Assembly (NCBI GenBank): GCA_033584155.1 | Contig: CP138355.1 | Coordinates: 4,287,826-4,351,825 of the forward strand | Direction of reading: 5' to 3' | DNA length: 64,000 bases | Source of the DNA: Candidatus Electrothrix scaldis | GTDB lineage: Bacteria; Desulfobacterota; Desulfobulbia; Desulfobulbales; Desulfobulbaceae | Notes under the pieces: model-generated | What the model was told of the DNA's origin: nothing | Databases searched by the model: none | Seen by the model: the letters and a program-made list of their open reading frames with translations, nothing else | In this document: positions 53,353 to 63,916 of the stretch, in pieces | Layout of the letters: every line of letters starts with the position of its first letter | Position numbering within the stretch: position 1 is the stretch's first letter | Program-made: the position numbers and the translations under genes

Positions 53353-55596
53353 TCAGGAATAATCCCCTCGGGCAAGCACCTCCCTGGGTTTGGAGCCGTC
53401 AGAAGGACCGACCACCCCATCCCGTTCCATCATCTCGATCATCCGGGCGGCCCGGTTATACCCTACCCGCAGTCGTCGCTGCACCATAGAGATAGAGGCT
53501 TGGCCAGTTTCTGTGACTACAGCAACTGCCTCGTCATATTTTTCATCGTATTCTGCTTCCCCGTCCTCACTGCCTGTCGGTTCGTCCTCCACCATCTGAA
53601 GCACGCTTTCATCATACTCTGCGGCACCTTGTTCTTTCAGAAAGGCAATGATCCGCTCGGTCTCCTCTTCAGAAATAAATGCCCCGTGGATACGCTTTAA
53701 CTTCGCTGCCCCTGGCGGAAGAAAGAGCATGTCACCAAGCCCAAGGAGATGTTCAGCCCCGGAACTATCCAGAATGGTTCTTGAATCCACCTTGGAAGAA
53801 ACTTTAAAAGAAATCCTGGTAGGAAAGTTTGCCTTAATCAAACCGGTGAGCACGTCTACCGAAGGACGCTGAGTCGCCAGAATGATATGCATACCAGCGG
53901 CCCGAGCCATCTGGGCCAAACGGGCGATAGAGGTTTCCACATCCTTTGAAGCCACCATCATCAAATCCGCCAACTCATCGACAATAATGACGATGTAGGG
54001 CAGCTTTTCTGTGGCGATTTCATTATAGGAGGTAAAGGATTTAACCCTGTGTTCCTCCAATAAACGATAGCGCCGTTCCATCTCACGCACAGCCCATATC
54101 AGGGCTCGACTCGCCATTTTCGGCTCAACCACCACCGGATGGAGGAGATGAGGGATCCCCTCGTAGACAGAAAGCTCAATTCTTTTCGGATCAATCATGA
54201 GCAGGCGAACCATGTCCGGGGTCGCCTTATAGAGGATAGAGCAGATAAAGGCATTAATAGCGACAGATTTACCGGCACCTGTGGCACCGGCAATGAGCAG
54301 ATGGGGCATTTTGGCCAAATCTGCTACAGCCGGTTTACCAATAACATCATACCCTAAGGCTACTGTCAGGAAGGAGGCGGAACGGCGATAGGCGTTGCTC
54401 AATAAAATATCGCGAAAGAACACCGTCCTTCGTTCCGGGTTAGGAATTTCAATACCGATGGCCGCCTTCCCAGGAATGGACCCCACCACCCTAACCCGGT
54501 CCACCTTAAGAACCATTGCCAAGTCATCAGCCAGATTCACCACCTTATTAATTTTCACCCCGGCAGCCGGGGAAAATTCGTAGGTCGTAACCACCGGACC
54601 TGGGGACACCCCGACAACCTCTCCCTGGACTGAAAAATCCAGGAGTTTGGCAACCAGCTTTTCACTGACCTTATAATAATGCTGTCGGTCAACTTCCAGA
54701 TCTCCCTGAGTATTCTTTTCAAGCAGAGAAATTGGCGGCGGCTGAAATATCCCTGCTCGCCCTGAAGAGGGTTTTATTGCTGAGGAAGTGTTATCCGACC
54801 CCATCACCGTCTCACGCCTGACCGGCTCATGGACAGTTGGTCCCTTTTGCGAGTTCGCCGGGCCTGCTTCTGCTATCCTTGTCTCTTTCTTTTCGCTTCG
54901 CGGCTCCAGCAGCGCTGTAAACGGCTTATTGATCTTTAAAGGAGCCGGTCGTTCAGCCAATCGTTTCTGCCGTTCTTCCTTCCAGGTAATGAGTTTATCT
55001 CCTGTCCACTCCTTACTAGCCACGACCTTTTCTATCACCAGAGGAGTCTGTTCCCAAAACCACAGCGCCGAAGCCAGAGGAGAAAAACGGATTGAGGCCA
55101 TGAGGGAATAGATCAGAGCAAGAACCAGGATAAGGACGGAGCCGACCACTCCCAAGGCCCCTTCCAAAGCACTACGCAGCAGATCGCCCAAATAACCACC
55201 AGGCAGAATAAATTCTGCCGGAAAGAAAATCTGTTCAGCCCCGGCAAGCAAACCGGAAGCGGCAAGAAGGGTTCCGGTGCCACCGGCAATGATATAGGGA
55301 AGACGATCCAGGGTTGCCGAAACAGTAAAGACAGCAACAGCTACATAGAAAAGAAGGAGGACAGGGAAAAAAGAAATCACCCCGACAAAGGAAAAGAGGT
55401 AAAAGGCGGTATAGAACCCAACGCCTCCGCACCAATTGCCTTCTGCCGTAGGTAAGATGGCCTGTGCGGCAAAGATGGGTAAGACATAGCTGACCAAACT
55501 AAGAAAAAGGAAAATGCCAAGAAAAAGGCAGGATATTGCTATTATCTCCTGATATATTTTTTTTTCATCCGCTGCAAGACGGGGTATAGATGCCAT
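53353..55596 (-). CDS. ftsK: DNA translocase FtsK
   Basis: Septum-anchored motor that moves chromosome ends during division (747 aa). Four membrane helices lie within the first ~170 residues, followed by a short linker, then the motor with Walker A GATGAGKSVAIN and Walker B IVIIVDELADLMM, and the C-terminal gamma winged helix (ISMVQRRLRVGYNRAARMIE) that reads KOPS-like sites. The linker is short (~130 aa), as in SpoIIIE. Confidence 0.96.
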   Translation of the reverse strand: MASIPRLAADEKKIYQEIIAISCLFLGIFLFLSLVSYVLPIFAAQAILPTAEGNWCGGVGFYTAFYLFSFVGVISFFPVLLLFYVAVAVFTVSATLDRLPYIIAGGTGTLLAASGLLAGAEQIFFPAEFILPGGYLGDLLRSALEGALGVVGSVLILVLALIYSLMASIRFSPLASALWFWEQTPLVIEKVVASKEWTGDKLITWKEERQKRLAERPAPLKINKPFTALLEPRSEKKETRIAEAGPANSQKGPTVHEPVRRETVMGSDNTSSAIKPSSGRAGIFQPPPISLLEKNTQGDLEVDRQHYYKVSEKLVAKLLDFSVQGEVVGVSPGPVVTTYEFSPAAGVKINKVVNLADDLAMVLKVDRVRVVGSIPGKAAIGIEIPNPERRTVFFRDILLSNAYRRSASFLTVALGYDVIGKPAVADLAKMPHLLIAGATGAGKSVAINAFICSILYKATPDMVRLLMIDPKRIELSVYEGIPHLLHPVVVEPKMASRALIWAVREMERRYRLLEEHRVKSFTSYNEIATEKLPYIVIIVDELADLMMVASKDVETSIARLAQMARAAGMHIILATQRPSVDVLTGLIKANFPTRISFKVSSKVDSRTILDSSGAEHLLGLGDMLFLPPGAAKLKRIHGAFISEEETERIIAFLKEQGAAEYDESVLQMVEDEPTGSEDGEAEYDEKYDEAVAVVTETGQASISMVQRRLRVGYNRAARMIEMMERDGVVGPSDGSKPREVLARGDYS

Positions 55597-55758
55597 GAAC
55601 TACTTCTCAATGTTGTGCAAATATCTTTATATGAAAGGAGTCGGTGATTTCTCGAATCATAGCTCCACTTTCATGCTTTGTTGCCTCAGCCCAAGGGGGT
55701 GAGATGTGTTGACATGAAAGTCATCAATAAAACCGGCTAAGCTGACCTTCACGTTTTG

Positions 55759-56919
55759 TTACTCACTCTTGACCACTTTAATATCTTTGTACATAGGCTC
55801 TGCTGCTGCGAGTATTTGCCATGCCGGATTAAATTTAATGCGCTGAGCAACTTTCAGGTTCAGGGCAATTGACTCGTCTCTGGGGTTTTGAAAAATCTGG
55901 ATTATTTCCCCTGGAGGAACTCCATGAAAAATTTGTGCCATAACCTTGGCTTGAAACATCCCTACATCGGCGTAATCTGGTCTGTTCATGCTCATCAAAG
56001 CACCATACTCTACCTCCCAATCGCCTGTTTGAGATAAGGTAGGAATATGATATTCCCAAAAAGGCTTGATCAAGCCCTGCATATCCTCGGGTTGAATCCC
56101 GAGGTGGGAGGTCATATACATCGCATCTATTTTTGGTGCCAATATTTCATGACATTCAGCAACCCGCTGCAGTACATCCGGTCTATCAGAAGGAATTACG
56201 CATGGCTCCAAGGAAAATTCTAATTTCCTGGCAACCTCTTTCGCATCATCTATGGCAGCAAAAGCCCTTCCCTCTGGGCTATCCACATAAACAATACCCA
56301 GGGTATGAAATTTAAAGGTTCGATGAAAAAGCTCCAGCTGATCCTTATAGCGATTGGGTTCAACCAAGGCATGAATATGCTGGCGCCCGGAAAATTCTAT
56401 TCCCTGAACGATCTTTGATTCAATGGGATTGCTGGCATTCATCACTATGGTCGCTGTATGATGGAGATCATTAGCAAGATCCTCACCAGCATAGGTGCCC
56501 ATAGCAATCATCAAATCCAGGTCATGCACTGTATTCAGGCGCTCTATGGCTACACGCTTATTCCTGGCTCTCAACTCTTCATCGTGAAGTCCACTCCAAT
56601 AGGCATCATCGACAAACTCAATATACTCACTCTGGACATTGGAGGATATCCATTTCCAGAGATATAAGGTGGAAGAATTTTTGGGAATAAAAATAGGCTG
56701 TACCCAATCTAATTCAATAAGTCCTTTGACAACTGCCCGCAGATAATCGGCATATTCATCTTTTTCGTTTCCTTCCAAATAACCGATACGCCATTTTTTC
56801 CCCTGCTTACTTACAGGTCCTGTATGATCCTCCGCATGCAGGGCAGTACCTCCCCCCCACAGGATGGTAATAAACAGAAAGGACAGAACCAATGCCATCA
56901 CAACATGAGCCCTTCTCAT
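55759..56919 (-). CDS. ABC-type substrate-binding protein (TrpX/YtlA-like)
   Basis: A 386-aa periplasmic protein with signal peptide (MALVLSFLFITILWGGGTAL). KWRIGYLEGNEKDEYADYLR, then LDLMIAMGTYAGEDLANDL, ATIVMNASNPIESKIVQGIE and TLGIVYVDSPEGRAF follow the ABC_sub_bind pattern of periplasmic binding proteins. No ABC permease is nearby. It is the last gene behind the HAMP-SpoIIE phosphatase (stop codon overlaps a possible TTG start of a longer form), so it may act as a ligand sensor subunit for that phosphatase rather than in transport. I use the ATG at 56919. Confidence 0.8.
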   Translation of the reverse strand: MRRAHVVMALVLSFLFITILWGGGTALHAEDHTGPVSKQGKKWRIGYLEGNEKDEYADYLRAVVKGLIELDWVQPIFIPKNSSTLYLWKWISSNVQSEYIEFVDDAYWSGLHDEELRARNKRVAIERLNTVHDLDLMIAMGTYAGEDLANDLHHTATIVMNASNPIESKIVQGIEFSGRQHIHALVEPNRYKDQLELFHRTFKFHTLGIVYVDSPEGRAFAAIDDAKEVARKLEFSLEPCVIPSDRPDVLQRVAECHEILAPKIDAMYMTSHLGIQPEDMQGLIKPFWEYHIPTLSQTGDWEVEYGALMSMNRPDYADVGMFQAKVMAQIFHGVPPGEIIQIFQNPRDESIALNLKVAQRIKFNPAWQILAAAEPMYKDIKVVKSE

Positions 56920-56978
56920 ACCCGTTCCCCCTGTAAAGGAAATTCTTACTGAATCCCTTATTGCCCAGATCATATTCA

Positions 56979-59126
56979 TCAACTTACTGCCTCATCACGG
57001 GCTTCCTCATTCTTTTCGTCAAGTTGAGGATTCCATCGCACCATCATCACAGCTATATCATCAGACTGGAGAGTCTGGCCTGCATGCGCCCTCACCTCAT
57101 GGAGGATACCCTCAACAGTTTCTTTACAGCTTGTCTCCTGTGTATCCTGCATGCGAGTGAACTCTTCAAGTAGTCGTGCATCACCAAAGAGCTGATCCTC
57201 TGCATTCATGGCCTCGGTAACGCCATCAGTGCAGAGAAAAATACTCCCTCCCGGCTTCAATTGCATGCTGATGTCCTTATAGACCAGACCAGGAATCACT
57301 CCAACGATAGGTCCACTGAGTTGTTTGTGAAAGGAAGGCGGGCTATCAGATTCTGTAAAAATGGGTGGTACATGCCCACCATTCGCATAACAAATCATCC
57401 CTGTTTTTACATGCAGGATACCGATAAACAAGGTAACAAAGGTGGCGTTTGGGTTATCCTGATAAAGCATCCCGTTGAGCTGCGTCATGATATCAGCCGG
57501 TGAAAAGGCTTTTTGACTGGAGGCTATATTCTTAATAAGCTTTTTCGCCGTCACCATGAACAGGGCCGCAGGCACCCCTTTACCAGCGACATCGCCGACG
57601 GTGATACAGAGATGTTCCTCATCAAGAAAATAAAAATCATATAAATCTCCGCCTACTTCCCGTGCCGGAATAAGATCTGCGTAAATTTCTATTTCCTTAC
57701 ATTCCGGCTCAAAGGTAAAACAGGTCGGCAGGCTGCCTAATTGAATTTCCCTGGCAACATTCAGCTCGCTCTCCATCCGTTCATTGGCCGCAGTTGTCAC
57801 CAAAAGTTGTTGAATATTTTCCGCAAGACGATTGACCATAAACCGGAAGGTCTCTGCGAGCTTCCCAATTTCATTATGATCTGTCACCGGAAGATTGTCT
57901 GTCAGCTCGGAATGGTCAGCTCCGGTGAAATCATGACTGGTTATCAACTTAATTTTCCGCGCCAGCAATTCCAGTGGATTGGTCAGCTTGGTTATAAGAA
58001 AGATGCATACTGCCAAGTTGAGCAAAAATATTCCGGCAATAAGGCCAAACTGGCGACGAAGAACCCTATTCACCGGGGCTCTAAGCTCATCTTTAGGAAG
58101 GACAATGGCAATATACCAATCAAATCCTTCAAAATAACGAACAGTCACTTCGAATTGCACTCCAGCTGAAGAGCTAATGTTCACAATATTCGAAGTGCCT
58201 TGACGGCCCCTATTCTCTGCTCTTTCAATAAATCGATCTATATTGCGTTCCCAAAGATACTGATTTTCTTTATAGAGATAAAAAGCCTTATCTCCCTTAT
58301 GGTCTCCTTTATGCGGATAGCCGAGTATTTCCCTCTCTTTGTTGAAAATAATGAGAAACCCTGATGTGCCAACCTGCTTATCATCTATCACAGATAACAT
58401 CTGACTGATCTTTTGCTGCTCCTCTGCAAAACGGGACTCAAGGTCACTGAAGGCACAGATGATAAATTCACCATTTTTTATCGGCATAAAATAGCCCAAA
58501 AACCTGTGTTCCTCGACCAGTTCACTGTCCTCTGGCTGAAAATGGAACACGGCGAATTCACCTGATAGACTGAGATTCGATGTTGTCAATTTGCGAGCCA
58601 GAGAACGATGATTCAGATCCAGAAATGCATTAATATTCGTCCCATTTTTCACCACTTTTTTAGAAGAAAGAAGAACATCCCCCCCAACACCGTCAATAAT
58701 CATCCACTCCACTTCCTTACTTCGAAGGTCAGAAGCAAACCAATCCGTCAGAATATAGCGCCACTGGACGTCTATCTGACCAATCAATTTTTTATCTACA
58801 TCAGCTTCTTTTTGGCCGGTAATGATATGAATATTTTTTAATGAGGCGAGGTAAAGAGTCTTACTGAGACTGGCCTGGCTTCTCAGGTTATTTTTCAACT
58901 CTCTGATCGTTTCAGCCTTATATGCAATCAGCCTATTATATTCATCACCAATATTACGATCAATAATATTAAAAAGGTTCTGAATAGCCCTGTCCTGAAC
59001 ATTATGAATGGCTTGACTTACATCTCTTTTCGTAAAGTACGAGACACCACCTGCTGTCACCAGCATAACCAGAGTGAAAACCACTAATATCTGAAAGCGA
59101 AAGCTCTTAAACAAGGTAAACCTCAA
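56979..59126 (-). CDS. Membrane sensor phosphatase: dCache-like sensor, HAMP and SpoIIE/PP2C domains
   Basis: A 715-aa protein with an N-terminal membrane helix (FQILVVFTLVMLVTAGGVSY), a ~320-residue periplasmic sensor, a second helix (LIAGIFLLNLAVCIFLITKL), a HAMP domain, and a SpoIIE-type serine phosphatase with its metal sites in AREVGGDLYDFY, VGDVAGKGVPAALFM, LCTDGVTEAMN and SDDIAVMMV. It would dephosphorylate a STAS protein in response to an outside signal. It overlaps the RsbW-like gene by 20 bases. Confidence 0.94.
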   Translation of the reverse strand: MRFTLFKSFRFQILVVFTLVMLVTAGGVSYFTKRDVSQAIHNVQDRAIQNLFNIIDRNIGDEYNRLIAYKAETIRELKNNLRSQASLSKTLYLASLKNIHIITGQKEADVDKKLIGQIDVQWRYILTDWFASDLRSKEVEWMIIDGVGGDVLLSSKKVVKNGTNINAFLDLNHRSLARKLTTSNLSLSGEFAVFHFQPEDSELVEEHRFLGYFMPIKNGEFIICAFSDLESRFAEEQQKISQMLSVIDDKQVGTSGFLIIFNKEREILGYPHKGDHKGDKAFYLYKENQYLWERNIDRFIERAENRGRQGTSNIVNISSSAGVQFEVTVRYFEGFDWYIAIVLPKDELRAPVNRVLRRQFGLIAGIFLLNLAVCIFLITKLTNPLELLARKIKLITSHDFTGADHSELTDNLPVTDHNEIGKLAETFRFMVNRLAENIQQLLVTTAANERMESELNVAREIQLGSLPTCFTFEPECKEIEIYADLIPAREVGGDLYDFYFLDEEHLCITVGDVAGKGVPAALFMVTAKKLIKNIASSQKAFSPADIMTQLNGMLYQDNPNATFVTLFIGILHVKTGMICYANGGHVPPIFTESDSPPSFHKQLSGPIVGVIPGLVYKDISMQLKPGGSIFLCTDGVTEAMNAEDQLFGDARLLEEFTRMQDTQETSCKETVEGILHEVRAHAGQTLQSDDIAVMMVRWNPQLDEKNEEARDEAVS

Positions 59127-59538
59127 AGCGATTCACATTAAAGCCGTTCATATACTCATACTCGTACTTATCCACCCCGGTAATGGCGAGATAGATTCCA
59201 AGTCCGCCGATAGCCCTTTCTTCAACAGAAAGCGAGACAGTCTCCTGGCCCTTTTCCAGCTTGCTTCGTGGGTCAAAAGGCACTCCTTGATCCCGTACCT
59301 GAATACTCAAGGAATCCGTCTTAAACTCCGCATCAATATATATTTTTCCGGTTTGCTGCTCTCTGTCTTGATAGGCATAGGAAATAATATTGGTGGCGAT
59401 TTCATCAACAGATAATTGCAATTTATAAATTTTCTTTTTCTCTAAAGATGTATGGGCGGCTGCCGCTGAAACATACGCACGGATCTCATCTAACACGTCC
59501 AAAGAGGCAGAAAATACTTTCTCTCCAAAAAACGACAT
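59107..59538 (-). CDS. RsbW/SpoIIAB-like serine kinase (anti-sigma type)
   Basis: A 143-aa GHKL ATPase. The N-box is QLSVDEIATNIISYAY, the G1 motif DQGVPFDP and the G2 motif ERAIGGLGIYLA. Such kinases phosphorylate STAS antagonists and hold a target protein. It sits between a STAS gene and the SpoIIE phosphatase, forming a complete partner-switching set. No sigma factor is in the window. Confidence 0.93.
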   Translation of the reverse strand: MSFFGEKVFSASLDVLDEIRAYVSAAAAHTSLEKKKIYKLQLSVDEIATNIISYAYQDREQQTGKIYIDAEFKTDSLSIQVRDQGVPFDPRSKLEKGQETVSLSVEERAIGGLGIYLAITGVDKYEYEYMNGFNVNRFEVYLV

Positions 59539-59596
59539 GGTAACGACCTGATTGCAAAAAAGGAAAAGGAGGGGAAGCCCCCTCCCTAGCGAAAGA

Positions 59597-59938
59597 TCAC
59601 ACTTTTTCTATCTCAGCAGGATCATAGATATCACGTATAACTACACTATGATTCAGGCCTGTCATTTCAAGGGTCTCTATCACCTGGGTCTGCGCCCCGA
59701 TCACATAAATATCAACAGTAGCACCCATTTTTTGTTTGGCAAAAATTAAGGTGCGCAGCCCTGCACTGGCCATAAAGGTTAACCCTTCCATCAGCAAAAC
59801 AATACGCTGTGCCTTATGACCAGCTGCCTCCTCTATGCGTTTCTGGAAATCGTCCGCTGTTCCGGCGTCGAGCTTGCCCTTCAACTGAATCTTAGCGACG
59901 CCACCTGCTGTCATTTCCAACATTGCTTCCAGACTCAT
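59597..59938 (-). CDS. STAS-domain anti-sigma antagonist
   Basis: A 113-aa single STAS domain. The phosphorylatable serine is most likely Ser58 in LTFMASAGLRTLIFA. It lies between glgX and the kinase gene and is the obvious substrate of both the kinase and the SpoIIE phosphatase. Confidence 0.92.
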   Translation of the reverse strand: MSLEAMLEMTAGGVAKIQLKGKLDAGTADDFQKRIEEAAGHKAQRIVLLMEGLTFMASAGLRTLIFAKQKMGATVDIYVIGAQTQVIETLEMTGLNHSVVIRDIYDPAEIEKV

Positions 59939-59965
59939 AATACTCCTCCTGTATTTTTTTAAAGA

Positions 59966-62152
59966 TTACTTTTTCCTTCCCAACAGGATAGCGACAGAGC
60001 GCCCACCAACCAACATCGATTGCTGATTATCAAGTATCCTTTCCTGTCCTGGTGGAAAAATATCTTCCGGGCTGGGCATGCTGGTATTGACTGATAAAAG
60101 CCATTGATATTCAGGAGGAAGCATGGGCATATCAAATGGCAGGGCATCCCAATGCATATTCATTGCCACATAGATAAAATCATCCTCATCATATCCCTCT
60201 TTGACATAGCTGCCATTCAACATAAAGGCAATAACATTACCGTTCCAATCTGCATGCCAAGCCTGGGTCCCATGCCAGGTTATATCGGCGTAGCCAGTTC
60301 CCTTCCAGTCCTGATTGCGGAGATGACAACCATTACGCAGAATAGGATGTGCATGGCGAAGTGCTATAATATGTTTGAAAAAGCGAAAAAGATCGTAATT
60401 CTTTTCCACCAACGTCCAATCCAGCCAGTTCAATTCGTTATCATGGCAATAGGTGTTGTTATTGCCATATTTTGTGCAGCCAACCTCATCCCCCTGCAGT
60501 ATCATGGGAACGCCCTGACTGACCATGAGCATGGAAACCGCGTTTTTGATCTGGCGTCTGCGGAGTGCATTGATTGCCGGATCCTCGGTTTCTCCCTCCC
60601 AGCCACAATTCCAAGAGTTATTATCATTGGCCCCATCCCGATTATCTTCCAGGTTGGCACTATTATGTTTGTTATTATAGCTCACCGTGTCGTACAGGGT
60701 GAATCCGTCATGACAGGTAATAAAGTTAATAGATGCCGTAGCACCACGCCCTCTATAGAGATTAGGTGATCCCTGGATAATCTGGCTCATGGCCCCGGCC
60801 ATCCCGCAATCTCCTTTGAGAAAACGGCGATAGGTATCACGGCTCTTGCCATTCCACTCTGCCCAACGACCATAGGCTGGAAAGGAACCAACCTGATAGA
60901 GCCCGCCAGCATCCCAGGCCTCGGCAATCAGCTTACATTTACCCAGCACCGGATCAAAGGCCAAGGCCTCAAGCAAGGGCGGGTTTGCCATAGGCGCGCC
61001 AAAGGGGTCACGACTGAGAATAGAGGCCAGATCAAAACGGAAGCCATCAATATGATACTCAGCAACCCAAAAACGCAGGGCATCCAGGACCATGTTCCGA
61101 ACTATGGGGTTATTGCAATTGAGGGTGTTCCCTGTCCCGCTGAAATTATAATAATATCCTTCCGGGGTCAGCATATAATAGGTCGGATTATCGATGCCGC
61201 AATAGGAGATAATCGGCCCATACTCATTGCCCTCAGCTGTATGATTAAAAACGACATCAAGAATCACCTCTATATCGTTCCTGTGCAGCTCTTTAATCAT
61301 CGTCTTTAATTCATCCGCCACCATAGTACCGTCGCCAACCCTGCCGGTGGCAGCAAAGCCCGCCTTGGGAGCAAAAAAACCAACTGTGGAATAGCCCCAG
61401 TAGTTCATCTTAACCCATTTCCCACTTGCTTCGTCGTACTTGGAATGCTCAAATTCATCAAACTCAAAGATCGGCATCAATTCGATACAATTAATCCCCA
61501 GTTCTTTGAGATAGGGTATTTTCTCTCGTAACCCGGTAAAGGTCCCGGCCATACTTGATTTAATACCCGACGAGGCATGACGGGTAAATCCACGCACATG
61601 AGCCTCATAAATAACCAGATCTTCTATGGGAAGTTCTGGAGGTCTATCCCCTTCCCAGTCAAAGTCATCAAAAACTATCCTGGAACGATGCTGATAAGGA
61701 TCGCTCTTATCTGGCACGACGCCCCATGCGTCGCGGCCACCAATGGATTTGGCATAGGGGTCCATCAGGATTTGAGAAGGATCAAAACGATAGATACCTG
61801 GTTCGCCGTGCCTGGCTCGTGGATAGGATGAGCCGTCCATCCGGTAACCGTATTCTATGTTCTCGTGATCCAGATCAAGGATGGTCATAGTGAAAACCTT
61901 GCCAATTCGAAAATCTGCCCATTCCGGTTCATTGGTTCCTACCTTGCTGAACATCCCCCGAAAGGGAATAACAGCATAGGGCTCAGGAGCGCCTTTTTCA
62001 AAGAGCAGCAGAACACAATAATCCGCATGATGGGAAAAAATGGAAAAATTAACTCCGCCGGGCACCAAAGTTGCTCCAAAGGGATAGGGCTTACCTGGAC
62101 GTATCTTATGCCCTTTGAAGAGGTGGGTAGGATGTGCATCTATTCTTTCCAT
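59966..62152 (-). CDS. glgX: Glycogen debranching enzyme
   Basis: A 728-aa GH13 isoamylase-type enzyme that hydrolyses alpha-1,6 branches of glycogen. An N-terminal carbohydrate-binding part (PYPFGATLVPGGVNFSIFSH) precedes the catalytic barrel with nucleophile Asp374 in DGFRFDLAS, acid/base Glu411 in LIAEAWDAGG and Asp482 in CHDGFTLYDTVSYNNKHN. It is enclosed by two STAS genes on the same strand, 27 bases from the one downstream and 4 from the one upstream, an arrangement I do not know from other organisms. Confidence 0.94.
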   Translation of the reverse strand: MERIDAHPTHLFKGHKIRPGKPYPFGATLVPGGVNFSIFSHHADYCVLLLFEKGAPEPYAVIPFRGMFSKVGTNEPEWADFRIGKVFTMTILDLDHENIEYGYRMDGSSYPRARHGEPGIYRFDPSQILMDPYAKSIGGRDAWGVVPDKSDPYQHRSRIVFDDFDWEGDRPPELPIEDLVIYEAHVRGFTRHASSGIKSSMAGTFTGLREKIPYLKELGINCIELMPIFEFDEFEHSKYDEASGKWVKMNYWGYSTVGFFAPKAGFAATGRVGDGTMVADELKTMIKELHRNDIEVILDVVFNHTAEGNEYGPIISYCGIDNPTYYMLTPEGYYYNFSGTGNTLNCNNPIVRNMVLDALRFWVAEYHIDGFRFDLASILSRDPFGAPMANPPLLEALAFDPVLGKCKLIAEAWDAGGLYQVGSFPAYGRWAEWNGKSRDTYRRFLKGDCGMAGAMSQIIQGSPNLYRGRGATASINFITCHDGFTLYDTVSYNNKHNSANLEDNRDGANDNNSWNCGWEGETEDPAINALRRRQIKNAVSMLMVSQGVPMILQGDEVGCTKYGNNNTYCHDNELNWLDWTLVEKNYDLFRFFKHIIALRHAHPILRNGCHLRNQDWKGTGYADITWHGTQAWHADWNGNVIAFMLNGSYVKEGYDEDDFIYVAMNMHWDALPFDMPMLPPEYQWLLSVNTSMPSPEDIFPPGQERILDNQQSMLVGGRSVAILLGRKK

Positions 62153-62156
62153 GATC

Positions 62157-62495
62157 TTATTTTAGTTCCTCCAAGCCGGATTCAAGGCTATCAAACACCC
62201 GAAAAAATGTTAAAAAGCCTGTAGCCTCCATATTATCCCGTATCATTTCGGATAGACCAGACAGAGCCACCGCCACACTTTTTTCCTGTGTCGTCCGGTG
62301 GGTAACCAACAGAGCCCGGAGTCCGGCACTTGAGAGGAAATCGACTTCACGAAGATCAATCAGGAGAGTTTTTGCCTCCTCTATCGTCTGGAGAACTTTT
62401 TCCTGAAACGCAGGAGCGGTCTTCCCATCAATAAATCCTTTCACTTCAACCACGCTTATATTGTCAACCAATCTGCTTACGATATCCATGTCCAT
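62157..62495 (-). CDS. STAS-domain protein upstream of glgX
   Basis: A 112-aa STAS protein (SVVEVKGFIDGKTAPAFQEK, LLIDLREVDFLSSAGLRALL). The phosphoacceptor serine lies in SSAGLR. It is distinct from the STAS protein at 59597 (about 30 percent alike by eye). I choose the ATG at 62495, preceded by AAGGAGAG. Its stop is four bases from the glgX start, so the two are translated together. Confidence 0.9.
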   Translation of the reverse strand: MDMDIVSRLVDNISVVEVKGFIDGKTAPAFQEKVLQTIEEAKTLLIDLREVDFLSSAGLRALLVTHRTTQEKSVAVALSGLSEMIRDNMEATGFLTFFRVFDSLESGLEELK

Positions 62496-62623
62496 TATGC
62501 TCTCCTTCTCTTCAGGTAAACTCCTATCCCTCCCATCCAGGGACGGACAACACAATATGAAAGAAGATACTTTCATATAAAAACAAGATCCGATCATGTA
62601 ATAATTTGGAACGGATAAGGAAA

Positions 62624-63265
62624 TTATTGATTTTCAGCAGCTGCGAGACGCAGCAAGGCATTGACTGCGGCAACAGCAACAGGTGTACCTCCTTTTCGCC
62701 CCAAGGAAGTAATATAAGGGTATGATTTACTAGCTAACAACGCCTTAGATTCCAGAGCATTCACAAAGCCCACAGGCACACCGATAACGAGGTCCGGGGT
62801 GAAGGTTCCCTGCTCAATCAGATCCATGACCTTGAGTAAGGCTGTTGGTGCGTTTCCCACAGCCACGATGCCGATATTGTCGTTGATGGCTCGCTCCACA
62901 GCGGCCTCGGAGCGGGTCATAGTGCCATTACCAGCTTGATCCACAGTCTCTGCTTCAGCAACCCGGCAAATAACTTTACCGCCAAATTTCTTCAGTAAGG
63001 CTTTTGAGATACCACTGGCTGCCATATTCACATCAACGAGAATATTCTTTCCTCCTCGCAGTGCCATCAGAGCAGCCTTGATCGCCTCAGGATGAAAACG
63101 CATATTGTCAGCAAAAGAAAAATCTCCTGTGGCATGGATACAGCGCCGCACCACCGCAAACTCCTCTTCAGTAAAATCCGTAGGCCCAAGCTCGGACTCA
63201 ATAATACGAAAGCTCTCAGCCTCAATCTCCAACGGCCCTATTTTTTGTATTTCCGGCAATCCCAT
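62624..63265 (-). CDS. cbiC: Precorrin-8X methylmutase
   Basis: Moves a methyl group from C-11 to C-12 in corrin (cobalamin) biosynthesis; 213 aa. The catalytic histidine is His44 in RRCIHATGDFSFADNM. DVNMAASGISKALLKKFGG, AVGNAPTALLKVMDL and GVPVGFVNALESKALL are family signatures. No other cobalamin gene is adjacent; its placement within a signalling run is unexplained. Confidence 0.95.
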   Translation of the reverse strand: MGLPEIQKIGPLEIEAESFRIIESELGPTDFTEEEFAVVRRCIHATGDFSFADNMRFHPEAIKAALMALRGGKNILVDVNMAASGISKALLKKFGGKVICRVAEAETVDQAGNGTMTRSEAAVERAINDNIGIVAVGNAPTALLKVMDLIEQGTFTPDLVIGVPVGFVNALESKALLASKSYPYITSLGRKGGTPVAVAAVNALLRLAAAENQ

Positions 63266-63304
63266 AATCTCTTTATATTTTATATCAATGAGATAAACTC
63301 ATAT

Positions 63305-63916
63305 TTACACCAACCTCTCCTCTCTTTCTTCTTCTTTCAGCTGGCTCATTGCCTTCTTGTAACAGGAAGGACAGACCCCATGACTGAACATAGCCTCAGA
63401 GTGTTCGGCAATATACTCTTCCACCTGCTGCCAATACCCTTCATCATTACGAATTTGCTTACAATAGGAGCAAATCGGTAAAATACCGGTCAACGTTTTG
63501 ATCTCCTCAAGTGCCGCCTCCAGCTCTTTTTCCCGCTTCCGCAAGGTGATATGGGTATTTATACGGGCAAGGACCTCAACCTGATGAAAAGGTTTTGTAA
63601 TATAATCAACCCCTCCAGCAGAAAAACCGGTCATCTTATCGCCCACGGTGTCCAAGGCTGTCATAAAAATGACTGGTATTGCGGCCAGATCCTTATCCTC
63701 CTTCATTTTTTTGCATATTTCAAACCCATTCATACCGGGCATCATGACATCCAATAAAACGAGGTCTGGCTGAATCTTCGGTAAAACTTCTAAGGCTCGC
63801 TGTCCGCTATCCACCATATATACCCGATAGTCATGCTCCTGCAAAAAAGAGAGCAAAACTTTAAGGTTAGCAGGTCGATCATCGACTACGAGTATTGCAT
63901 CTTGATTTCCTGACAT
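63305..63916 (-). CDS. Response regulator with C-terminal cysteine motif
   Basis: A 203-aa protein. The receiver domain has the acidic pair in VVDDRPANLKVLL, phosphoacceptor Asp56 in DLVLLDVMMPGMNG and Lys108 in YITKPF. A coiled helix (ITLRKREKELEAALEEIKTL) leads to a C-terminal module CSYCKQIRNDEGYWQ, then HSEAMFSHGVCPSCYKK, with two CxxC pairs that look metal-binding. This tail is frequent on receiver and PAS proteins in Desulfobacterota. No kinase is seen in the window. The 84 bases upstream hold no further gene. Confidence 0.92.
   Translation of the reverse strand: MSGNQDAILVVDDRPANLKVLLSFLQEHDYRVYMVDSGQRALEVLPKIQPDLVLLDVMMPGMNGFEICKKMKEDKDLAAIPVIFMTALDTVGDKMTGFSAGGVDYITKPFHQVEVLARINTHITLRKREKELEAALEEIKTLTGILPICSYCKQIRNDEGYWQQVEEYIAEHSEAMFSHGVCPSCYKKAMSQLKEEEREERLV

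Follow-up and report, generated by a model that had tools for sequence, protein, structure and literature searches.

Why a gene for a glycogen debranching enzyme, glgX, should lie in the midst of the genes of a partner-switching system, i.e., a serine kinase, STAS-domain antagonists and a phosphatase, is the question raised by a 64,000-nucleotide stretch of the genome of Candidatus Electrothrix scaldis (phylum Desulfobacterota; assembly GCA_033584155.1, contig CP138355.1, positions 4,287,826 to 4,351,825), hereafter called the window. A first reading of this DNA, made from the sequence alone (the sequence-only reading), had described a run of eight genes with two different STAS proteins and no sigma factor, and had proposed that partner switching controls glycogen breakdown directly. 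The analysis reported here identifies the block in the window as an icfG-type partner-switching module. What is new is the reach of this gene set, since one clade of GlgX goes together with the switch in nine or ten phyla. Control of GlgX by direct contact with the STAS protein encoded immediately upstream of it (STAS1) is put forward as the leading mechanism, tentatively and with rather less than even confidence.

Linkage of glgX to the switch

The loci related to the window were the best 80 of 515 relatives and, as such, constitute a sample leaning to the window's own clade. Considering those with a flank of at least 1.5 kb (77 loci upstream, 73 downstream and 72 on both sides), a same-strand STAS gene lies no further than 1.5 kb upstream of glgX in 72/77 loci and downstream in 64/73, looser phmmer counts giving 73/77 and 65/73, respectively. 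STAS genes occur on both sides in 61 of the 72 loci and on at least one side in 70, the two loci with none being L024 and L078; four more loci of the window type (L106, L107, L135, and L136) again exhibit STAS genes on both sides. Among the ordinary glgX loci of the phylum, on the other hand, none of 43 showed a STAS, kinase or phosphatase gene in flanks of about 1.5 kb, some of them shorter. With STAS genes beside glgX so regularly in one case and never in the other, the linkage of glgX to the switch is not due to chance. Of 98 cyanobacterial genomes drawn separately, nine contain a GlgX of the clade, one of them being the centre genome, known beforehand, with STAS1 upstream in 9/9 and the second STAS protein (STAS2) downstream in 7/9; these nine GlgX matches lie in open frames of 702-737 amino acids, with one stop interrupting the match in two of them.

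Counts of the kinase and phosphatase genes were limited to loci with 1.5 kb of flank upstream and 6 kb downstream, 63 of the 80. The kinase gene was present in 54 of these, the phosphatase gene in 51 and all five genes in 39, and the commonest order, STAS-GlgX-STAS-RsbW-PPM (25/63), is the one seen in the window. The kinase, antagonist and phosphatase set discerned around glgX from the sequence is thus real, and its arrangement recurs across phyla. Some absences of the kinase are only apparent because, in the genome of L045 (Omnitrophota), its domain sits in the frame of the phosphatase: at L157 2-1531, phosphatase and RsbW-like kinase matches share one open frame in an apparent fusion. Also in Omnitrophota, two loci carry an additional, divergent STAS-RsbW-PPM-STAS set upstream of their main cluster (L056 1477-4589 and L065 1344-4594). 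A fusion of GlgX with another protein of the module was looked for among the phmmer matches in the loci and none was found.

Other families recur in the vicinity, namely 2-epimerase-like proteins (71/80 loci), DJ-1/PfpI (50/80) and glyoxalase (20/80), as typed on one or two representatives each, the gene order being drawn for 31 loci. That these recurring neighbours are metabolic or stress enzymes is in keeping with a plain metabolic operon, where switch, epimerase and glgX would be co-transcribed for one carbon response with no contact between the switch and GlgX. Yet the window genome, in which the slr1855-type 2-epimerase family (PF07221) has no match at E 0.001, keeps switch and glgX together, and the flanks of its other, ordinary glgX (L089) contain no gene of the switch; altogether, this explanation is considered unlikely.

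The icfG cluster and other known systems

The gene set in itself is not new, for it matches the icfG cluster of Synechocystis PCC 6803 (slr1852-slr1862), which the sequence-only reading had not named. Like the window, this cluster brings together two STAS proteins, an RsbW-like kinase, a PPM phosphatase and an isoamylase/GlgX. In the available parts of the papers, the slr1852-1862 operon is described with an epimerase (Slr1855), an anti-sigma factor antagonist (Slr1856), GlgX (variously named) and IcfG (PMC8670252), and the icfG cluster as Slr1861, Slr1856, Slr1859, IcfG and the isoamylase encoded by slr1857 (PMC12329169). Slr1857 and its neighbours were compared through these papers and through other cyanobacterial loci, 45 cyanobacterial GlgX rows falling in the window's clade. 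The window differs by (i) the want of an epimerase match in its genome, such a gene being usual but not universal in the clusters, (ii) the kinase gene preceding the phosphatase gene, the reverse of slr1860 and slr1861, and (iii) a phosphatase with dCache and HAMP domains, together with an added solute-binding protein and cbiC.

The RsbV/RsbW/RsbU and SpoIIAA/SpoIIAB systems resemble the window in their kinase and STAS families, their phosphorylated serine and their catalytic residues. They differ in that no SigB/F-type factor was found in the window genome and that the window kinase scores below the cut-offs of the RsbW and spIIAB models (53, 47, and 30 bits against 145, 155, and 135). A precedent for direct control of an enzyme is provided by SiaABCD of Pseudomonas aeruginosa, where the small switch protein SiaC is reported to bind and activate the enzyme SiaD (PMC8457831), within a phosphorylation pathway. 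There, however, the target is a diguanylate cyclase and not GlgX, and the window phosphatase matches SiaA weakly, with 66 bits against a cut-off of 700. Among the open-access papers listed for the switch together with GlgX or isoamylase, none was seen to propose contact between a STAS protein and GlgX.

A distinct clade of GlgX

At a threshold of 1e-50, 59 of the 297 genomes of the phylum match GlgX, and the matches fall into two classes: beside the window's own, those of G022 and G060 share 69-71% identity, and all other rows 50% or less. The window genome itself carries, in addition, a second and ordinary GlgX (L089, 691 bits against 627 for the window GlgX). In a quick tree including 23 of the 43 ordinary rows and containing some long branches, a branch with a support of 100 separates the 84 GlgX rows of the window type from the ordinary rows. 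These 84 rows, which comprise near-copies (L022 and L106, as well as L049 and L107, are identical), originate from Cyanobacteriota (45), Chloroflexota (11), Pseudomonadota (6), Omnitrophota (5), Bacteroidota (3), “Deltaproteobacteria” labelled as Myxococcota (3), Deinococcota (2), Planctomycetota (1), Kiritimatiellota (1) and Thermodesulfobacteriota (1), with five unlabelled rows and the window. Since G022 and G060, assigned to the window's own phylum, have rows identical to two of the three “Myxococcota” ones, the count of phyla is given as nine or ten. Within the clade, the window GlgX is joined (support 100) by rows of Trueperaceae and of gamma- and alphaproteobacterial metagenome bins, and L038 and L136, from its own order, fall elsewhere; metagenome bins may be chimeric, the window genome being one contig.

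Members of the clade are further marked at their N-terminus, where a strict RIDxxPT motif occurs in 73/84 clade rows versus 0/43 ordinary rows. The best match of the window GlgX among solved structures is plant isoamylase 1 (9xvi), and the alignments to 9xvi and to 2wsk, which we take to be the GlgX of Escherichia coli, begin only at residues 17 and 18. This N-terminal segment is a candidate docking site; in agreement with such a role, L078, devoid of switch neighbours, has lost the motif, but L024, where glgX likewise lacks an adjacent STAS gene, speaks against it by retaining the motif.

STAS1 and STAS2

That the two STAS proteins of the window are different from one another was borne out by the tree, where STAS1 (37 rows) and STAS2 (38 rows) occupy opposite sides of a branch with a support of 100. 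In nine loci glgX has a single STAS gene within 1.5 kb, and of these loci seven keep STAS1 (L014, L017, L019, L023, L028, L031, and L032, with L019 being a second copy in the genome holding the full cluster L018) and two keep STAS2. In five of the seven, the separated STAS2 stays with the kinase and phosphatase genes, either on the opposite strand of the same locus (L017 and L028) or elsewhere in the genome, as STAS2-RsbW-PPM, for L014, L031, and L032 (L156, L155, and L153, respectively). Correlations of evolutionary distances, calculated on 25 rows leaving out cyanobacteria and with two rows from one genome (L008 and L009), amount to 0.72 for GlgX-STAS1, 0.59 for GlgX-STAS2, 0.50 for GlgX-RsbW, 0.63 for STAS1-STAS2, 0.62 for STAS1-RsbW and 0.73 for STAS2-RsbW; the three values involving GlgX were never reached in 2000 permutations each. 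This evidence tends to place STAS1 on the output side and STAS2 with the kinase, although common ancestry raises all of the correlations.

In most of the loci drawn, STAS1 is flanked by the epimerase-like gene on one side and by glgX on the other, so that its partner could alternatively be the epimerase-like protein, in which case the STAS1 of the window, in a cluster without epimerase, would be drifting; the long branch of the window STAS1 (1.12 versus 0.41 for STAS2) fits with such drift. Against this stand the invariant SSAGLR motif retained by the window STAS1 and the loci L038 and L053, which have no epimerase-like gene in view and nonetheless keep STAS1-glgX, and we regard this reading as very improbable.

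Possible outputs: direct control or a sigma factor

In the mechanism put forward, an external solute would be sensed by the Cache-HAMP phosphatase, possibly assisted by the solute-binding protein; the phosphatase would take the phosphate off the STAS proteins and the RsbW-like kinase would restore it. As the output subunit, STAS1 would bind the icfG-type GlgX in one phosphorylation state, perhaps at the extra N-terminal segment, and this binding would switch debranching on or off. STAS2 would mainly be the partner of the kinase, and an additional output through a sigma factor could exist. That these genes stay together in nine or ten phyla is an indication, though no proof, of the enzyme itself being the target of the switch.

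No sigma factor is linked at the window locus, just as the sequence-only reading had it. The genome, which is 96.7% complete, encodes three PF04542 proteins, two RpoD-like and one RpoH-like, and for none of them is a SigB/F/G or ECF model the best match. One of the RpoD-like proteins may be a group-2 factor, group 2 being presumably the class of SigC, and an output through a sigma factor is thereby conceivable. A search of the 80 loci with the three sigma proteins of the genome revealed no sigma gene, though distant types could escape these queries.

The main competing explanation assigns the switch a sigma factor as its target, on the model of Synechocystis; here this would be one of the two RpoD-like proteins, with glgX as a co-transcribed passenger or a target gene. 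In the accessible portion of the Synechocystis study, Slr1861 is reported as an anti-SigC factor, binding and controlling SigC, and as the kinase of Ssr1600, Slr1856 and Slr1859, with IcfG dephosphorylating Slr1856 but not Slr1859 (PMC12329169). The same portion gives Ssr1600, encoded elsewhere, as the antagonist shown for SigC, and states the targets of Slr1856 and Slr1859 as unknown (PMC12329169). The presence of two RpoD-like factors, one of them possibly of group 2, has to be set against a SigC antagonist lying outside the cluster and by loci in which no sigma gene came to light with the three queries, and a sigma output alone leaves the pairing of one GlgX clade with the switch across phyla unexplained. 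Control of a sigma factor is accordingly a possibility to be taken seriously, albeit one in which our confidence is limited.

Several observations weigh against direct control of GlgX by STAS1. From the literature, in addition to the role of Slr1861 towards SigC, the deletion of slr1859 impairs growth and that of slr1856, adjoining slr1857, does not, according to the part of the report available (PMC11619594), which speaks against STAS1 as the sole key part. From the loci, L061 and L076 are those keeping STAS2 and not STAS1; L062, at a contig end downstream, has no STAS1 in the 4 kb upstream, its STAS1 being elsewhere in the genome; and L014, L017, L023, L028, and L031 make up one Nostoc clade, so that the seven loci keeping STAS1 represent perhaps three events. 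L024 keeps the N-terminal motif with no adjacent STAS gene, its genome showing only a divergent STAS-kinase pair. A correlation of distances reflects shared history and not contact, common ancestry raising all values, and the epimerase-like gene adjoining STAS1 in most loci is a possible partner as well. Finally, the AlphaFold2 predictions, each based on ten rows, were too poor to judge contact, both for GlgX alone (mean pLDDT 45, pTM 0.39) and for a STAS1-GlgX read-through chain (pLDDT 54, pTM 0.53).

Organisation of the locus

The eight genes enumerated by the sequence-only reading were all recovered at the positions it had given, on the minus strand, and Pfam and NCBIfam searches are consistent with each assignment (Table 1). 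The receiver protein matches Response_reg with 102 bits. GlgX matches the Pfam alpha-amylase family (91 bits) and CBM_48, and scores slightly below the cut-off of TIGR02100 (629 against 640.9 bits). Among the 11 HATPase_c_2 matches of the genome, the window kinase is the best (77 bits, the next 30) and the sole one in a short open frame. At G000:C1 1269545-1271541 (L001 and L098), another STAS gene lies near a protein with a HATPase_c_2 match, with a tail resembling by eye a cyclic-nucleotide-binding domain. A PF04392 protein is also found by the phosphatase gene in L022, with a weak PF04392 match in L049; in L022 (7956-9974), the ABC_sub_bind domain is fused with a Mem_trans domain, adjoining the phosphatase gene.

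Table 1. Features of the glgX locus (window coordinates unless a locus is named).
Feature	Position	Strand	Basis or remark
ABC_sub_bind-type solute-binding protein, possible co-sensor	55759..56982	-	PF04392 47 bits
dCache-HAMP-SpoIIE (PPM) phosphatase, possible sensor input	56979..59126	-	dCache_2 + HAMP + SpoIIE (150 bits)
RsbW/SpoIIAB-like serine kinase	59107..59538	-	HATPase_c_2 78 bits
Hairpin and T-rich tail, possible attenuator between STAS2 and kinase gene	59556..59587	-	Fold
STAS2 (second, distinct STAS subfamily)	59597..59938	-	Pfam STAS 59.5 bits
GlgX, icfG-type clade	59966..62152	-	N-terminal RIDxxPT-like segment typical of the type; D374/E411/D482
STAS1 (anti-anti-sigma-type STAS protein)	62157..62495	-	Pfam STAS 72 bits
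cbiC	62624..63265	-	CbiC 248 bits; within the block, outside the recurring module
Block missing from G303 and G299	55542..63351	.	Approximate extent, about 7.8 kb; blastn alignment ends, inside the ends of ftsK and the receiver gene
Solute-binding protein, histidine kinase, receiver, hybrid kinase and receiver genes (upstream set)	L104 13131-19485		Beyond the window end, directly upstream of the block

The residues on which the function of these proteins would depend are conserved. The phosphosite serine is unchanged in 75/75 rows of STAS1 and, as Ser58, in 72/72 rows of STAS2, its position being taken by us from SpoIIAA/RsbV. E46, N50, D83, G111, G112, and G114 of the kinase, presumably the positions expected of an RsbW/SpoIIAB kinase, are unchanged in 64/64 rows, and D374, E411, and D482 of GlgX, which we assume to be the catalytic residues of GH13, are kept in 84/84 rows. 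The phosphatase exhibits all of the motifs GGDLYDF, GDVAGKG, CTDG and SDD, to which we ascribe a catalytic role. Given this conservation of phosphosite, kinase and GlgX residues, the switch proteins and the enzyme look functional.

The spacing is tight, as had been claimed from the sequence. The gaps amount to 39 bases between the receiver gene and cbiC, 26 between cbiC and STAS1, 4 between STAS1 and glgX, 27 between glgX and STAS2, and 58 between STAS2 and the kinase gene, whereas the kinase and phosphatase genes overlap by 20 bases and the phosphatase and solute-binding protein genes by 4; a further 162 bases separate the latter from ftsK. The open reading frame of STAS1 extends to 62597, but a start at the better-placed ATG at 62495, preceded by AAGGAGAG, fits the relatives, in which case its distance to cbiC would be 128 bases. 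Short gaps and overlaps favour co-transcription, but a single uninterrupted transcript is not assured because of the hairpin between STAS2 and the kinase gene. Within that gap, a 51-nt stretch folds with -19.4 kcal/mol (z -2.67; 2/200 shuffles equally stable), and this hairpin could, through attenuation of transcription, hold the amount of kinase below that of STAS1, GlgX and STAS2. Promoter-like sites are at shuffle level (19 versus 16.0, sd 3.9), terminator-like rows number 16 versus 8.3 in shuffles (sd 3.0), eight of the 16 being one hairpin, and Rfam gave no match at gathering scores in the 19.9 kb region. STAS1 frequently ends with a TAG in the frame of glgX (L008, L020, L022, L052, L080, and others). 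This TAG was considered as a read-through signal and dropped; in several loci the stop merges, by eye, into a Shine-Dalgarno-like sequence, which makes translational coupling of STAS1 and glgX the likelier arrangement.

Limits and origin of the block

The run of genes does not begin with the receiver gene, as had been supposed, but extends past the window end, where four more genes lie on the same strand: a hybrid histidine kinase gene overlapping the receiver gene and, further upstream, genes for a receiver, a histidine kinase and a solute-binding protein. In the congeners G303 and G299, this upstream set, receiver included, and ftsK are found at about 73% and 78% DNA identity, with ftsK adjoining the receiver gene and the block missing; between window positions 55541 and 63352 nothing was alignable by blastn, and no open frame there matches a protein of the block. 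Because these congeners possess the upstream set without the block, the receiver gene belongs to that set and is not a member of the module. The block thus contains cbiC, STAS1, glgX, STAS2, the kinase, the phosphatase and the solute-binding protein.

The place given by the sequence-only reading to the receiver and cbiC within the system could not be upheld, and both were rejected as parts of the switch. cbiC occurs in 0/80 related loci, and receiver-domain matches occur in four (L019, L032, L044, and L067), none adjoining STAS1. No cbiC other than that of the block was found in the genome; in G303 the single copy is located elsewhere and is 60% identical to that of the window (the ftsK of G303 being 86% identical), and none was found in G299.

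The near-identical genome G301 has the block at 98% identity, and among the eight genomes of the genus examined (one of them, G302, being 69% complete) this GlgX type occurs only in G000 and G301. The expectation that glgX would be linked to these genes in relatives therefore fails for most of the genus, from which the type is absent, whereas in loci having the type glgX nearly always lies beside a STAS gene. A gain of the block in this lineage is the simplest reading, its loss from the other congeners being a possible alternative. With a GC content of 0.453 in the block, 0.463 upstream and 0.51 in ftsK, the composition is not distinctive, and acquisition is thus argued from the absence of the block at this site in two congeners and from its distribution across the genus. 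At the block ends, no notable repeat was seen among the repeats listed (20 of 30 direct families).

Significance

The module of the window is ordinary in kind and unusual in its reach, its lack of an epimerase, its sensor phosphatase and its presence or absence between congeners. In the available text of the papers found, the icfG cluster is treated for one cyanobacterium and its debranching gene is left as an observation. As GlgX of this clade is rarely without a neighbouring STAS gene, also outside phototrophs, the control of a glycogen enzyme by STAS becomes directly testable. In its widest form, a dedicated STAS protein would bind a dedicated clade of GlgX at its N-terminal segment across nine or ten phyla, an external solute would set debranching without transcription, and the link to SigC in Synechocystis would be an added second output; so broad a statement is possible but somewhat doubtful. 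If a STAS protein does control a glycogen enzyme, partner switching would extend from transcription into central metabolism, and there would be a hint of a reason for the retention of two GlgX proteins in genomes of this kind.

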